Assembly (NCBI GenBank): GCA_945787845.1
Contig: CALZJH010000002.1
Location: forward strand, 248,001-312,000
Origin: an uncultured Woeseiaceae bacterium
Lineage (GTDB): Bacteria > Pseudomonadota > Gammaproteobacteria > Steroidobacterales > Woeseiaceae
DNA length: 64,000 nucleotides
Direction of reading: 5' to 3'
Position numbers and translations under genes: made by a program. Position 1 is the first letter of the stretch, and every line of letters starts with the position of its first letter. The notes beneath the pieces were generated by a model. That model did no database searches. It was not told the DNA's origin and saw only the letters and a list, made by a program, of their open reading frames with translations. Shown here one piece after another: positions 2,712 through 8,670 of the stretch.

Positions 2712-3908
2712 ATGCAAGCGCGAAATCTCTTTGTCCTTGTCGGATGTCAGCTTATTTCGGCAACCTCGACGATCGCACTGGTTACGCTCGGCGGCATCAT
2801 CGGCGCGTCGATGACCGACAACAAGGCGCTGGTCACTTTGCCGCTTTCGTTGATGGTCGTCGCCGTCGCATCAACCGCGATTCCTGCGAGCATGCTGATG
2901 CGGCGCATCGGACGCCGGCGCGGTTTCATGTTGTCGTCCACGGTCGCATCGGCCGGCATGCTTATCGGCGTCCTCGCACTTCAACAGTCGAGTTTCGTGC
3001 TGTTCTGTGTCGCAACGATGATGCTGGGCGTGAACATAGCGTTTACACAGCAGTATCGTTACGCTGCCGCCGAGAGTGTTACGCAGCAGTACGTTGCCCG
3101 AGCCATATCGTTTGTCCTGCTCGGATCGATCGGCGGGGCATTTCTTGGCAAGGAACTGGCGACGCGAGGTCAGGCCTGGGTCGAGGGCATCCCATACGCG
3201 GGGACGCTGGCGGTGCTTGGCTTCCTGTTTATGCTGCAGGTCCTGTTGATGTCGCTGTTGCACGAACCGGCCGCACAGGAAGAGCACCGCGTTACGCAGT
3301 CCGACCGGTCGTTGAGAAAGATCGTCTTGCAGCCGGTGTTCCTGGCGGCGGTGTCTGGCGGGGCGGTTGCGTACGGAGTCATGACGTTGATCATGACGGC
3401 GACACCGTTAAGCATGCACCTTAATGATGGCTACTCCATCGAGGAAACAAGCAGCGTGATTCGCGCCCATGTCCTGGCGATGTATGTGCCCTCGCTGGCA
3501 GCGGGCTTCCTGATCGATCGTCTCGGGGTGACGCGACTGATGATCGTCGGCGCAGTGGGTTTGCTCGCGACGTCGTTGATAGGTCTCCAGGGACACTCCT
3601 TGCTGCATTACTGGTGGGCGCTCGTGTTGCTGGGGGTTGGCTGGAACTTCCTGTACGTCGGCGGCACGACGTTGCTTACCTACACCTATTCGCTTGCCGA
3701 ACGATTTCGGGCACAGGCCGTGAACGAATTCCTCGTGTTCGGTATTTCGGCGACCGCGTCCCTACTCGCCGGCACGGTCATGTTCTATTTTGGGTGGACC
3801 ATGCTCATGCTGGTCCCGATTCCCCTTCTCATTGCAATCTGCGTGGCCCTCGTCTGGACGCGAGGAGATCCGCTGTTGCGGCGTGTGGGGACGACCGTCG
3901 AGGGATAA
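2712..3908 (+). CDS. major facilitator superfamily transporter
   Basis: A 398-residue inner-membrane protein with about twelve hydrophobic segments. RRIGRRRGF near residue 60 is the cytoplasmic loop between helices 2 and 3 that marks the MFS fold, and a second positively charged loop (LIDRLGVTRL) near residue 265 marks the repeat half. The second half keeps GVGWNFLYVGGTTLLTYTY-type glycine-rich helices. Substrate cannot be told from sequence; relatives include drug and small-organic-acid carriers. It is followed five bases later by a PLP decarboxylase, so the two are probably cotranscribed, and the carrier might move that enzyme's substrate or amine product. That link is inference. Confidence 0.85.
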   Translation: MQARNLFVLVGCQLISATSTIALVTLGGIIGASMTDNKALVTLPLSLMVVAVASTAIPASMLMRRIGRRRGFMLSSTVASAGMLIGVLALQQSSFVLFCVATMMLGVNIAFTQQYRYAAAESVTQQYVARAISFVLLGSIGGAFLGKELATRGQAWVEGIPYAGTLAVLGFLFMLQVLLMSLLHEPAAQEEHRVTQSDRSLRKIVLQPVFLAAVSGGAVAYGVMTLIMTATPLSMHLNDGYSIEETSSVIRAHVLAMYVPSLAAGFLIDRLGVTRLMIVGAVGLLATSLIGLQGHSLLHYWWALVLLGVGWNFLYVGGTTLLTYTYSLAERFRAQAVNEFLVFGISATASLLAGTVMFYFGWTMLMLVPIPLLIAICVALVWTRGDPLLRRVGTTVEG

Positions 3909-3913
3909 GGCCT

Positions 3914-5299
3914 ATGGCAAAAGATCATTCGGTTCGACAATTGCTGGAAGCCGCGGCACAACGCGGCATCGATTATCGCGAGACCAGTCCGCTACGGGGC
4001 GTTGCGCCGTCCGCTGATGCAGTTAGCGATGTGGATAAATTCATTGAACCCATGCCCGAGCACCCAACCGCGGACCTCGCCGTGCTGGAGCAGCTGGACG
4101 AGGTCGGTACGCCTGCCACCGTGACGATGACGGGGCCGCGCTATTTCGGGTTCGTGATCGGCGGCTCGCTGCCGGTCACGGTGGCGAGCAACTGGCTGGC
4201 AACGGCGTGGGACCAGAACGTCGGCATGCACGAAGTGACGCCCGCAACGGCGACACTGGAACGCGTTGCAATGAACTGGATGATCGATCTGTTCGGCCTG
4301 CCGGAAGAGGCGTCGGCTGCGTTCGTCACCGGAGCGACGATCGCAAACTTTGCGTCGCTTGCCGCAGCACGCAATCGCGTCTACCGGGACGCCGGATGGA
4401 ACGTCGAAGCGGATGGGCTTTATGGTGCGCCACCGATTTCAATTTGGGTCGGCGAGGAAGTGCACCCAACCGTAATCAAAGGGCTCGGGTTGCTCGGGTT
4501 CGGTCGGGAGCGTGTCATTCGCCTGGAAGTTGACGGGCAGGGACGTATCGATTCGACGCGGTTGCCGCAAGTGAAAGGTCCGACGATTGTCTGTACGCAG
4601 GCGGGCAATGTGAATACGGGTGCGTTCGATCCTGTGGGAGACATCTGCGATGCCGTCAAGCCATCGGGTGCGTGGGTCCATGTCGACGGCGCCTTCGGGT
4701 TGTGGGCAGCGGCATCCCCCGATCGCGCGTACCTGTGCAACGGCTTTCAGGCGGCCGACTCCTGGGCCACGGATGCACATAAGTGGCTTAACGTCCCTTA
4801 TGACAGCGGCATCGCTTTCGTGCGGGATGGCGCCGCGCTCAAGGCCGCCATGTCGATTTCCGCAGAGTACCTGCTCACGGAGTCCGAGTTCAGGAATCCC
4901 TCGGATTACACGCCCGAACTTTCGAGGCGTGCCCGAGGCGTCGACGTATGGGCCGCATTGAAGTCGTTGGGCAGGTCCGGTGTGGCCGACATGATCGATC
5001 GTTGCTGCAGCAACGCGCGCCGGTTTGCCGCCGGCCTCGAGGCAGCGGGGTTTCACGTCTTGAACGACGTGGTGCTTAACCAGGTGCTGGTGTCTTTCGG
5101 TGAGGATGCGCAGACGCGCAGGATCATCGATGCGATCCAGGCGGAGGGCACGTGCTGGTGCGGTGTAACGGTCTGGCAGGGCCAGACCGCCATGCGCATC
5201 AGCGTCTGCAACTGGTCCACGACGCAGGACGACGTGGACCAGAGCCTTGACGCAATTATCCGGATTGCGAAATCAGAAGTTGTAAACGAAGGCGAGTGA
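3914..5299 (+). CDS. pyridoxal-phosphate-dependent decarboxylase (group II)
   Basis: A 461-residue cytosolic enzyme of the glutamate/aromatic amino acid decarboxylase family. The PLP-binding lysine is K290 in DAHKWLNVPYDSG, preceded by VHVDGAFGLW, where the Asp contacts the pyridine nitrogen. FVTGATIANF is the phosphate-cup region. ATG at 3914 begins the family's N-terminal helix; the frame stays open upstream inside the MFS gene, but that part is not homologous. Substrate is undetermined; relatives act on aspartate, tyrosine, tryptophan or diaminobutyrate. The last 27 bases overlap the 3' end of the gene on the opposite strand. It is likely cotranscribed with the MFS carrier. Confidence 0.9.
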   Translation: MAKDHSVRQLLEAAAQRGIDYRETSPLRGVAPSADAVSDVDKFIEPMPEHPTADLAVLEQLDEVGTPATVTMTGPRYFGFVIGGSLPVTVASNWLATAWDQNVGMHEVTPATATLERVAMNWMIDLFGLPEEASAAFVTGATIANFASLAAARNRVYRDAGWNVEADGLYGAPPISIWVGEEVHPTVIKGLGLLGFGRERVIRLEVDGQGRIDSTRLPQVKGPTIVCTQAGNVNTGAFDPVGDICDAVKPSGAWVHVDGAFGLWAAASPDRAYLCNGFQAADSWATDAHKWLNVPYDSGIAFVRDGAALKAAMSISAEYLLTESEFRNPSDYTPELSRRARGVDVWAALKSLGRSGVADMIDRCCSNARRFAAGLEAAGFHVLNDVVLNQVLVSFGEDAQTRRIIDAIQAEGTCWCGVTVWQGQTAMRISVCNWSTTQDDVDQSLDAIIRIAKSEVVNEGE

Positions 5300-5938
5300 C
5301 ACGACAGGCCAGGCCTTGAGGTCGCTCATGTCGTCTTCGAGTTCGGCGCGCTCCGCTGCAATGGCAGGGGCGAGTAATGCCTGTTCGCCGGCTGAGAGAT
5401 TGTCCCAGTTGGCGGCTTCCAGGGTTACGAACGGATCGCCCTGCCACAATACGCCGAAGTCGAGATTGAGTCCGGCTTTCCCGAACAGCTCAAAGTCGAA
5501 TCCGACGCCGGCGTAAGGCGCGGTTTCTTCAAATGACGTAACGCTGCTGATCGTGCCGATCGTGGACGTGTCGAACACGGATCCACCGATATTAATCAGT
5601 GCGTCCTGGCTGGCCAGCCGCATTTCATTGCCATTGGAAAATGCGCCAACGGTAAAACGGAATGGGCTTAGCGGAATCTTGAAATTACCGGTCAGGTAAT
5701 AGCTGTCGAGCGCCAGCGTGCCATCGTAGTTGACGCCTGCATAGCTACCGTCGTCGCCAAAGTCGTACTGATTGATACCGGCGCGCAGGTCGAACCAGGG
5801 CACGGGTGGGTCCCAGCGGCCTTCCAGCCCGAGACCCAGTGTGCCGGCCTTTACGCCGACGCCGAAATCGGCGGCCGCGCTGCCGGATGCGAGAAGCGCA
5901 AGCACAGCGAGCGCAGCGTTCAGGTTTTTGAATTTCAT
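5273..5938 (-). CDS. outer-membrane beta-barrel protein
   Basis: A 221-residue exported protein. The N-terminus is a signal peptide (MKFKNLNAALAVLALLASG, cleavage likely after SAAA). The rest alternates polar and hydrophobic residues in short strands, with aromatic girdles and a C-terminal phenylalanine (VYNF), the recognition signal for barrel assembly. An alpha-helical insert rich in Ala and Glu near residues 185-205 (LAPAIAAERAELEDD) is probably an extended loop. ATG at 5938 gives the natural signal peptide; a TTG nine bases upstream is less likely. No specific function is evident. It converges on the decarboxylase gene with a 27-base overlap. Confidence 0.75.
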   Translation of the reverse strand: MKFKNLNAALAVLALLASGSAAADFGVGVKAGTLGLGLEGRWDPPVPWFDLRAGINQYDFGDDGSYAGVNYDGTLALDSYYLTGNFKIPLSPFRFTVGAFSNGNEMRLASQDALINIGGSVFDTSTIGTISSVTSFEETAPYAGVGFDFELFGKAGLNLDFGVLWQGDPFVTLEAANWDNLSAGEQALLAPAIAAERAELEDDMSDLKAWPVVSLAFVYNF

Positions 5939-6147
5939 GACGTTCAACCCAAGTGAGTAACAGGACCGAGGTTATAGCGAGGTCACACTGTCGACTGTGC
6001 GATGCATCACAGGACCGCAAATTGTGCAGGAATATGTCAAATCTGGACGAACAGCGTGGATTTCGGGGAGGTGCGATGGCAACGCCGGGCGTACTTTGAT
6101 CCTGCGCAGGAAGCGCAAACAAACAGCCATTCAAAAGGAGATTGAAT

Positions 6148-6348
6148 ATGCGCGAACTCACAATGAGCGAAATCGGGTATGTCTCGGGTGCCAGCGACGA
6201 TTGTTCCGGCGGATCGGGCGATTCGTCGGGCAATGACTTCGGCGGTGTCACGGACACCGGCGGTCTCGGGCAAGACCTGATCAACATCTACGAAGGCCTG
6301 GTGGAAGCAACGTCGCACATCATCGAGCGCGTGGCTAACGCGCTGTGA
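6148..6348 (+). CDS. microcin-like peptide precursor with double-glycine-type leader
   Basis: A 66-codon gene with a strong ribosome site: AAAAGGAG at 6133-6140, seven bases before ATG 6148. The first 15 residues, MRELTMSEIGYVSGA, match the leader of class II microcins and related peptides (M-R-x-L-T-x-x-E-[IL]-x-x-V-S-G-[GAS]), which peptidase-containing ABC exporters remove after the Gly-Ala pair. The predicted 51-residue product has a Gly/Ser/Asp-rich, strongly acidic front with one cysteine, then an amphipathic helix from about LGQDLINIYEGL to the C-terminus. No exporter or immunity gene of known type is nearby. A CPBP protease converges on it with a 14-base overlap. The leader match is seen directly; bacteriocin activity is inference. 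Confidence 0.65.
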   Translation: MRELTMSEIGYVSGASDDCSGGSGDSSGNDFGGVTDTGGLGQDLINIYEGLVEATSHIIERVANAL

Positions 6349-7201
6349 TGTCAGGGTGCCGGGACCCGCTCCCGGCGCCCGCATTTCCCCAGGGCCAGCC
6401 AGGCCCTAGGACCAGCCAGGCTATCAGGCCGACCGACAGGCAGAAGACGAGCGTCGCCGGCATACCGACGGACCAGAGCGGCAGGGTATCGGGTGTGGGG
6501 TTCCAGTGGAGATTCAGGCAGCGCCAGGTAATTTGTGGCTCGAGGTTGACCATGCTGTGCGTCACGATAGATGGCCATAAAGACCCGGATACCCAGTATA
6601 TGGTGCCGAGTACAGCTCCGCCGGCCAGCGCCAGACCCCAGCCGGACGTGCGGTGAAACACGACGAACAGCAGTGTCGAAATCGTAATGGCCAGCACAGG
6701 ACCGCGGGAGTGAAACCGGGTTTGCACGTAGCCGCGATGGATGAGTTCCTCAATCGGTGGGATTAGCAGTGTGGCCACGACGATGCCCGCCACCATGGGT
6801 GCCGTCGGCGGGCACGAAAAATGGGCCACGGGACCGGCGATGGCCAGCGGGTCGGCGCTGGATTGCCAGCCGAACGAGATTCTCACCACCAGTTGCGACC
6901 ACCAGGCAATGCGAAGCAGCAGGCCGAGGGCAACAGCGACGAGAAGCAATCTCAGGGTGACGGGTCCGAAGTGGAACAGTGCGCGAAGGAACCCCCGGTC
7001 GGCGCGCAGCACAGGCAGGAGCAGCACCAGCAGCACGGGCGGCACGATGAAGTAGGACAGATCCGCAGCAGACGTGCGGTCGAGGCCAGCGGTCTCGAGG
7101 GTGACCTGCAGCCAGGCGCGGCACAGGAGTGCCGCCGCGAGGGCGAGCAGCGCGGCTGCGACGTGGGTTCTTGGCGGAGAATCAGCGCTCACGCCAGCCA
7201 T
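6335..7201 (-). CDS. CPBP family intramembrane glutamic protease
   Basis: A 288-residue, highly hydrophobic inner-membrane protein with about eight membrane segments. It carries the three CPBP (Abi/CAAX protease) motifs: E151-E152-x-x-x-R156 in PPIEELIHRGYV, H183 in FVVFHR, and H215-x-x-x-N219 in THSMVNL. Such proteins cleave prenylated or membrane-bound peptides; many bacterial members sit beside bacteriocin genes and give self-immunity or process peptides. ATG 7201 gives a compact protein starting shortly before the first helix; an ATG at 7303 would add 34 residues but overlaps alkB by 55 bases and has no ribosome site. It lies downstream of alkB and ends tail-to-tail with the microcin-like gene, which suggests a partnership. 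Confidence 0.85.
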   Translation of the reverse strand: MAGVSADSPPRTHVAAALLALAAALLCRAWLQVTLETAGLDRTSAADLSYFIVPPVLLVLLLPVLRADRGFLRALFHFGPVTLRLLLVAVALGLLLRIAWWSQLVVRISFGWQSSADPLAIAGPVAHFSCPPTAPMVAGIVVATLLIPPIEELIHRGYVQTRFHSRGPVLAITISTLLFVVFHRTSGWGLALAGGAVLGTIYWVSGSLWPSIVTHSMVNLEPQITWRCLNLHWNPTPDTLPLWSVGMPATLVFCLSVGLIAWLVLGPGWPWGNAGAGSGSRHPDITAR

Positions 7202-7248
7202 GCTGACGCGTGAGGCCGCGCGAGTCAGCGGGAGAAACCGGCCGAAAG

Positions 7249-8466
7249 TCAGAGTTTTGGCAAATCCGTAAACGTTGGCTCGGTCATCTTGGCTCGTCCC
7301 CATTTGAGGAATATTGACGGGCGCGCATCCGGATCGATGTTCACTTTGTCGAGGTCGCCATCGATGTGCGGCAACGCCATCAGGCGCGGGTCCATGATGC
7401 GGTACCAGAGCCAGGGCAGGTAGGCGATGACGTACATCCCGAAGTAGCCGTTCGGCAACTGCGGCAGATCGGGGAAATGCCGCAGAGACTGATAACGGCG
7501 CAACGGATGCGCGTGATGGTCCGAGTGACGCTCGAGGTGAAACAAAACGAGGTTGCTGACGACGAAATTGCAGTTCCAGGAATGATGCGGCTCACAGCGC
7601 TCATAGCGACCCTTTGCGGTCTTCGCACGCAGCAAGCCATAGTGCTCGATGTAGTTGGCGCTGGTCAGCTGCCAGTAGGCCAGTGCGTGATGGATGACCA
7701 GGAATACGATGGCGAGCCAGCCAAACGCCGCAATGAGAATGACCGCGACCAGCAGGCTAATCGCGTACGACTGCAGGATCGGGTTGCTGTAATGCCAGAT
7801 CGGCTTGTCCCGCGATTGCAGGCGCTCACGTTCGATCTGCCAGGCGCGGCGGAATGCCCCCGGGATTTCGCGCAGTGCGAACTTGTAGATGCTCTCACCC
7901 ATACGGGCACTGGCCTCGTCCTCGGGCGTCGACACGAGTCGGTGGTGGCCGCGATTGTGTTCGACCGTGAAGTGTCCGTAGGCGGGCACGGCGAGCACGA
8001 TCTTCGACAGCGTTTTTTCCAGCTTCGAGTTCTTATGGCCGAGTTCGTGGCCCGTGTTGATAGCGAATCCTGCCGTCAGGCCGGCGAATGCGGCCAACAG
8101 GAAGAAGGCCCACCCGCTCAGCGGTTGCGTCAGCGCGTAGGCGGCGCATCCGAACAGGACGACGAAATGCAGCGGCACCACAATGTAAGTCAGGCGCCGG
8201 TAAAAGGTATCCTGGTCCAGCTGCATGATGACCTCTTCCGGCGGGTTGTTCGTGTCTTCGCCGATTAGCCAGTCGAGCGCCGGGGCCAGCAGGTAGTTCA
8301 CGAGGAACGGCAGAAGGAACCACAGCTCATTACCGGTGGATGCGTGCAGGCCGACGGGAATCAGGGCTTGCAGAGGATAGGCGACGGATAACAGCCAGAA
8401 CCAGCGCTTGCGATCGACATAGTGGATGGCTTCGCCACTGGCGGAAACGCCCGTATAACCCTTCAT
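7249..8466 (-). CDS. alkB: alkane 1-monooxygenase
   Basis: An integral-membrane di-iron enzyme that hydroxylates the terminal carbon of medium- and long-chain alkanes with O2 and electrons from rubredoxin. The 405-residue product has six hydrophobic helices and the histidine boxes that hold the iron pair: HELGHK, HNRGHH and RHSDHHA. It also has NYIEHYGLLR, the AlkB-specific signature that separates it from fatty-acid desaturases and xylene monooxygenase. ATG 8466 follows GGGGAG by about nine bases. No rubredoxin or rubredoxin reductase gene is in the window, so electron partners must be elsewhere. A cytochrome c gene is divergently transcribed 204 bases away. Confidence 0.95.
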   Translation of the reverse strand: MKGYTGVSASGEAIHYVDRKRWFWLLSVAYPLQALIPVGLHASTGNELWFLLPFLVNYLLAPALDWLIGEDTNNPPEEVIMQLDQDTFYRRLTYIVVPLHFVVLFGCAAYALTQPLSGWAFFLLAAFAGLTAGFAINTGHELGHKNSKLEKTLSKIVLAVPAYGHFTVEHNRGHHRLVSTPEDEASARMGESIYKFALREIPGAFRRAWQIERERLQSRDKPIWHYSNPILQSYAISLLVAVILIAAFGWLAIVFLVIHHALAYWQLTSANYIEHYGLLRAKTAKGRYERCEPHHSWNCNFVVSNLVLFHLERHSDHHAHPLRRYQSLRHFPDLPQLPNGYFGMYVIAYLPWLWYRIMDPRLMALPHIDGDLDKVNIDPDARPSIFLKWGRAKMTEPTFTDLPKL

Positions 8467-8670
8467 GAGCCTGCTCCCCAAATCATGCCCGATTATCAAT
8501 CAATATCGCGGACGGACCGGCGCCGCGACCTGAGACGTGTCGGGTAACTATACAATCTGCTGCAGTGCGTGCCCATTGTGGCCAAGAAAATCGCGGGAAA
8601 TCAAATTGATGCGGCGTTGGTACGGTATTTGCTCTATATTTGATGCTGGCAAAGGCTTTGAGGGTTGGCA

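Follow-up and report, generated by a model that had tools for sequence, protein, structure and literature searches.

A short peptide gene and the gene of a CPBP intramembrane protease, which runs towards it from the opposite strand, were found in the same 32 of 99 genomes searched, as the preliminary description of this DNA had led us to look for. Comparison of the genomes shows the peptide gene to be a selected gene whose occurrence is tied to that of the CPBP gene and of a C39 exporter. The explanation that we favour, and to which we give an even chance of being right, is an intercellular peptide that a C39 exporter secretes and that a CPBP enzyme of its own processes. On this view the two genes make up a self-contained cassette, one coding for a secreted peptide and the other for its partner intramembrane protease. 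To judge from the protein families, the precursor would be cut after GA or GG, and the peptide exported, by a C39 ABC exporter that works with an HlyD adaptor, both being encoded at a distance in the same genome. Production or processing of the peptide would probably require the CPBP protease, whose part would not end with protection of the producer. Once mature, the acidic peptide, whose C-terminal helix is near-invariant, may act between cells as a signal, as a surface or biofilm factor, or as a narrow antagonist. If right, this would provide, in a dominant lineage of the seafloor, a well-defined exported peptide together with its partner intramembrane protease (Woeseiales are said to make up 1-22% of 16S sequences from marine sediments; PMC7082342), and the part played by CPBP partners of exported peptides, maturation or immunity, would become a testable question. 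The prokaryotic members of the CPBP family have been called largely unexplored (PMC11980579).

The features concerned lie close together in the window, by which we mean the whole stretch of 64,000 nucleotides that was analysed:

5273-5947, minus strand: OMP-like flank gene, read as an outer membrane protein from its sequence; it adjoins alkB in cassette-free genomes
5996-6011: CRP-like site TGTGCGATGCATCACA, between the OMP-like gene and the peptide gene
6103-6117, plus strand: inverted repeat TGCGC-N5-GCGCA, 5' of the ribosome site of the peptide gene
6133-6147, plus strand: ribosome-binding region of the peptide gene, AAAAGGAGATTGAAT, strong and conserved
6148-6348, plus strand: gene of the 66-residue precursor peptide, with leader residues 1-15 ending in GA and a predicted mature part of 51 residues
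6335-7201, minus strand: CPBP (Rce1-like, PF02517) intramembrane protease of 288 aa, convergent with the peptide gene
7249-8499, minus strand: flank gene at the other edge of the cassette site, which we take to be alkB-type from the preliminary description and general knowledge

The 66-residue reading frame, the microcin-type leader and the strong ribosome site described earlier are all present, the last as AAAAGGAG ahead of the ATG. An in-frame TTG lies two codons 5' of this ATG, which is preferred as the start because relatives support it. The leader, MRELTMSEIGYVSGA, is of the double-glycine type and ends in GA. It is followed by an acidic linker rich in Gly, Ser and Asp and then by a C-terminal amphipathic helix. 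The mature part has a net charge of -8 and a single cysteine, at mature position 4. The acidic Gly/Ser-rich front and the amphipathic helix had been proposed before and were borne out: the helix has a moment of 0.495, equalled by 0.06% of 5000 shuffles, a mean hydrophobicity of 0.28 and no basic tail. AlphaFold places it at residues 37-65, with mean pLDDT values of 82 (41-50), 86 (51-60) and 77 (61-66), within a whole-peptide model that is weak (mean 67.9, pTM 0.31). The remark that the core is not a recognised bacteriocin still stands, as neither Pfam nor NCBIfam gave a match above cut-off: NCBIfam gave none for the peptide, and Pfam MccV reached E 0.12 and 13.4 bits, under the cut-off of 27. 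The NCBIfam model TIGR01847 had one sub-threshold match in the genome and the window peptide was not listed, so that this search is uninformative on leaders.

The same design recurs in relatives. A script read 21 leaders ending in GA and 20 ending in GG among 42 genus-type peptides; the remaining one, at locus L118, was not parsed and reads FGG. Exactly one cysteine follows the leader in all 45 peptides counted from the taxon-labelled loci, a count that leaves out two cut peptides (L125 and L126) and both peptides of genome G054. In 44 of the 45 the script placed this cysteine no more than six residues past the cut; in L118 it stands, by eye, at position 6. Net charges in these 45 range from -1 to -10, and the usual ending is -AL or -AF. 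Residues Y48, S56, I59, E60 and R61 are invariant in an alignment of 22 peptides. Genome G054 (locus L079) carries two different peptides of the family, at 2413-2613 and 3793-3993, which flank a single CPBP gene on either side; the mature part of the second contains two cysteines, and the single-cysteine rule is thus not absolute.

Compared with its nearest relative, the window peptide gene differs by 15 synonymous and no non-synonymous changes. This, together with its presence in 32 of 61 same-genus genomes, makes the peptide more than a product of chance and rules out a spurious small reading frame. With pS near saturation, pN/pS is lowest in the peptide core (0.21), followed by the leader (0.32) and the linker (0.46). 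Mean pairwise identity, calculated from 33 sequences per gene without L125-L129 and ten other cut or flank-less loci, is 71% for the peptide core, 69% for AlkB, 61% for the OMP-like protein, 46% for the peptide linker and 40% for CPBP.

The CPBP assignment with all three catalytic motifs intact was confirmed. The window protein matches PF02517 with E 2.1e-18 and 66.8 bits (cut-off 22.4) and contains EExxxR, FxxxH and HxxxN. All 36 sequences retrieved with tblastn have the catalytic residues E, E, R, F, H and H; the third motif ends in N in 29 of them and in D in the other 7. The protein falls below the NCBIfam cut-offs for MrtJ (34.9 of 75), Mrt_core (21.2 of 100) and MrtS (25.6 of 130). The tail-to-tail overlap of 14 bases between the two genes is real in the window, but it is not a conserved feature, and on this point the earlier account needs correction: the stop-to-stop distance ranges from -32 to +85 in 27 loci, with +7 the commonest value (9 loci) and an overlap in 7.

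The peptide was found with E 1.7e-5 or better in 32 of the 61 same-genus genomes, the window's own included; these 32, and no others of the 99 genomes searched, also have a CPBP orthologue (E <=1e-6). Neither a peptide without this CPBP nor a CPBP orthologue (E up to 1e-6) without the peptide was seen in the 99. Peptide matches at E 0.0018-0.09 in six genomes, and a second weak match in G017, were dropped as chance. A profile built from 22 peptides gave seven weak matches (E 9.5e-4 to 0.4), none of them convincing and mostly within long frames, in the 29 peptide-negative genomes of the genus. Run against 369 genomes of the class, the 22-peptide profile matched strongly only in the window's own genome and in G264, another same-genus genome, where CPBP again stands beside the peptide; two further matches (E 0.005 and 0.008) were not counted. 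A CPBP of the type found outside the genus gave no match at E 1e-15 in an equal number of genomes, a search that had no positive control and shows little, and tblastn gave no match for plasmid-borne relatives. A pattern scan of one genome per species, over 84,980 species, returned 102 stretches with 47 loci. Eighteen of these carry the label Woeseiaceae or Woeseia; 26 are assigned no more closely than to Chromatiales, Gammaproteobacteria or Proteobacteria, and three have other labels. We take the host of the window to belong to Woeseiaceae and probably to live on the seafloor.

The neighbours are nearly as constant as the pair. In a set of 30 peptide loci CPBP adjoins the peptide gene in all 30; the OMP-like gene was located in 28, and alkB in 29, with a weak match of 39 residues in one case. 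In the 47 taxon-labelled loci CPBP is adjacent in all 47, while alkB is present in 42 and OMP in 37; both flanks are missing from the three contigs labelled outside the genus, and some other loci stop at a contig edge. The OMP-like gene of the window has no Pfam match. We searched for alkB in 60 genomes, 37 of them of the same genus, and obtained 16 alkB loci from 15 peptide-negative genomes. None of the 16 contains the peptide or CPBP; in 13 the OMP-like gene comes next after alkB and neither cassette gene separates them, and in three no OMP was present within the stretch examined. These 13 empty sites and the constant pairing mean that the pair behaves as a two-gene cassette at one site. Locus L123 has an extra reading frame of 490 aa at 7181-8653 (minus strand), between CPBP and alkB.

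The region 5' of the peptide gene is also conserved. A GCGC-N-GCGC pattern stands at the position of the inverted repeat in 28 of 30 peptide loci, and this repeat is a putative operator or 5' UTR hairpin. The CRP-like site has no more than one mismatch in any of the 30 peptide loci, and the same is true of 11 of 13 loci without the cassette, the remaining two having two and five mismatches; it probably serves the OMP-like gene, because the 11 cassette-free loci keep it. We also considered TGCGCAGGAHGCGC as a regulon motif. With at most one mismatch it has 28 matches in the genome, compared with 14 for a backwards control, but the claim was dropped because the sole match near the exporter (C5:107914) falls within the HlyD frame.

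The statement that there is no dedicated exporter holds for the window but not for the genome. A search of the latter gave a single C39 match, an ABC exporter of 739 aa (PF03412, E 3.4e-33) on a contig other than that of the window, with an adjoining HlyD adaptor gene (HlyD_3, E 9.2e-15). The catalytic Cys, His and Asp can be placed by eye, without alignment to CvaB, in AECGLAC, DHFVVL and VHDPA. Eight OEP domain matches in four frames indicate OEP/TolC-type proteins in the same genome. Excluding C39 matches at E >1e-5, which lie in frames of about 250-480 aa, a strong C39 match is present in 31 of 32 peptide-positive and in 4 of 29 peptide-negative genomes of the genus (Fisher p 6e-12, by a test that ignores kinship). 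Among genomes at least 90% complete the figures are 15 of 15 and 2 of 13. The counter-examples with an exporter but no peptide are G008, G013, G030 and G055; G056, which is 80% complete, has the peptide and only a weak C39 match. This exporter and the co-occurrence support the earlier suggestion that a peptide with a CPBP partner is secreted by way of a shared, distant exporter. As leader and core are also conserved in relatives, and no CPBP orthologue (E up to 1e-6) was seen without the peptide, none of the three refuting outcomes named in the preliminary description was obtained.

Kinship was taken into account with a quick RpoB tree of 46 genus members and two outgroups, in which 15 of 45 inner branches are starred; it leaves out 15 of the 61 same-genus genomes, 12 without an rpoB match and three with partial ones. 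On this tree the peptide requires at least 10 and C39 12 state changes as a minimum. A home-made Pagel-type test of correlated evolution, run on this one tree, favours dependence (LR 35.6, p 3.6e-7), although the p value is rough, with some rates at their bounds. A stricter independent-pairs test on starred branches gave five pairs, about 4.2 of them concordant and none opposite, and was not significant (median p 0.125).

Three MAG contigs labelled Lysobacter, Burkholderiales and Betaproteobacteria carry the genes in the order peptide-CPBP-HlyD-C39 ABC, and their peptides have the same C-terminal motif as those of the genus. CPBP was identified by Pfam in all three, and HlyD and C39 by Pfam in L127 and by similarity in the other two. 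The L127 CPBP is 28% identical to that of the window over 88 residues. The exporters of L127 and L129 share 98% identity; one of these two taxon labels may be wrong, and both contigs perhaps represent one case.

The exporters themselves are not uniform. Of 16 exporter loci from peptide-positive genomes, 8 resemble the type of the window's genome (47-75% identity), 6 are nearer the outside type and 2 are like neither. They stand at differing sites, and an HlyD match lies beside the exporter in 15 of the 16, being absent from one copy in G016. Taken over loci L133-L152, from 16 positive and 4 negative genomes, at least two divergent exporter types with different neighbours suggest exporter replacement. 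That a C39 exporter is kept though its type differs points to need rather than mere co-inheritance.

The main rival, which we consider rather unlikely, is that the peptide is a class II microcin-like bacteriocin, exported by C39 and killing relatives, with CPBP as the immunity factor of the producer. The double-glycine-type leader, the C39 exporter with HlyD and the position of CPBP beside the peptide in 47 of 47 loci agree with it, as does the gene order of the three outside contigs, which resembles that of a microcin operon. The rapid divergence of CPBP (40% identity) also agrees, and counts against processing, as immunity proteins may diverge in this way. The same can be said of the place of CPBP in the outside contigs, where an immunity gene could stand, and of the convergent arrangement, which requires separate promoters and is odd for an enzyme and its substrate. 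We nevertheless lean towards processing because this CPBP occurs alone in none of the 99 genomes. This is a lean and not a proof: the two genes, being neighbours, may come or go together in a single step, so that the argument loses force, and divergent CPBPs that do not reach the E 1e-6 threshold would be missed. The peptide core, as conserved as AlkB (71% and 69%), counts for processing over immunity. Moreover, microcin cores are described as highly variable, whereas this core is conserved genus-wide, and at 288 aa the CPBP is longer than confirmed microcin immunity proteins, which have 51-216 aa (PMC9746304). An acidic mature peptide (-8) also speaks against a bacteriocin. A microcin or bacteriocin identity is possible but uncertain, given no family match above cut-off, the acidity and a core that is not diversifying.

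That the double-glycine peptide serves in biofilms, at the surface or as a signal, while CPBP has a regulatory or sorting role and does not touch it, appears distinctly improbable. Such peptides need not kill, since the GG proteins EbfG1-4 enable biofilms and are required, with the exporter PteB, for those of Synechococcus (PMC4997328), and the CAAX protease SilX apparently has SilCR, a signal peptide, as its target and plays no part in immunity (PMC9298176). However, no receptor, kinase or regulator was seen beside the cassette in the loci inspected, and the two-way coupling of peptide and CPBP suggests direct contact. It is hardly credible that the pair are chance neighbours, an ordinary CPBP of the alkB operon and an unrelated or spurious small reading frame. 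CPBP starts 47 bases past the alkB stop on the same strand, and on account of this gap the two could be co-transcribed. Yet alkB sites without CPBP exist, the only changes relative to the nearest relative are synonymous, peptide and CPBP co-occur in 32 of 32 genomes, and the three outside contigs show the same pairing among other neighbours. The favoured explanation, a C39-exported intercellular peptide processed by its CPBP partner, can be given a more specific form, which we put forward tentatively as possible and somewhat doubtful: an undescribed Gram-negative system in which a C39-exported, acidic, mostly single-cysteine helical peptide, its core nearly unchanged across a Woeseiaceae-type genus, would be activated by an obligate CPBP and serve as a messenger or surface factor, not as a bacteriocin with its immunity protein.

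Several known systems resemble parts of this one. Class II microcins such as microcin V (PMC9746304) share the short precursor, the leader ending in GG or GA, the C39 exporter, HlyD and OEP/TolC-type proteins in the genome; here, in contrast, the peptide is acidic, the core is conserved, there is a CPBP partner and the peptide gene is unlinked to the exporter in the window's own genome. The class II microcin label is carried only by the leader and the export parts, and we rate the peptide, on its sequence features, as belonging to the putatively C39-exported GG-peptide type and not as a proven microcin. SilX, of the Sil/Angicin locus of Streptococcus anginosus, is likewise a CPBP-type protease tied to a small-peptide system; it differs in belonging to a Gram-positive quorum-sensing locus with a reported effect on the signal peptide, and the likeness is one of description only (PMC9298176). 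The myxosortase and other sorting CPBPs (MrtX, MrtJ, MrtS) belong to the same protease superfamily, and the presumed substrate here shares with theirs a conserved cysteine. The CPBP protein MrtX removes sorting tags from C-termini (PMC11980579). A transmembrane helix followed by an Arg-rich tail marks the MYXO-CTERM substrates, whereas the helix here is amphipathic and charged. EbfG and PteB of Synechococcus elongatus are GG-motif small proteins and the peptidase-domain exporter that assists their secretion, with a non-killing purpose; they differ in their biofilm role and in that the abstract names no CPBP, and the likeness is one of architecture (GG leader and C39 exporter) only (PMC4997328). 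Among the matches listed, titles and the starts of abstracts gave no description of this peptide-CPBP family, many subscription papers being outside reach, and none of the titles listed for Woeseia and bacteriocins is relevant.

A few other small reading frames were noted near the exporters. A script applied to the surroundings of C39 exporters in the window's genome and 20 other same-genus genomes returned one plausible GG cargo, in G016. In this genome a Gly-rich frame of 75 residues whose start is leader-like (EKVVGG) lies near a C39 copy (L137, position 1635, minus strand) and represents a possible other cargo. Two more small frames with double-glycine-like leaders, one of them Pro-rich, lie 5' of the peptide in L127 (5450-5867) and L129 (5512-5921), and are possibly further cargo of the same exporter.
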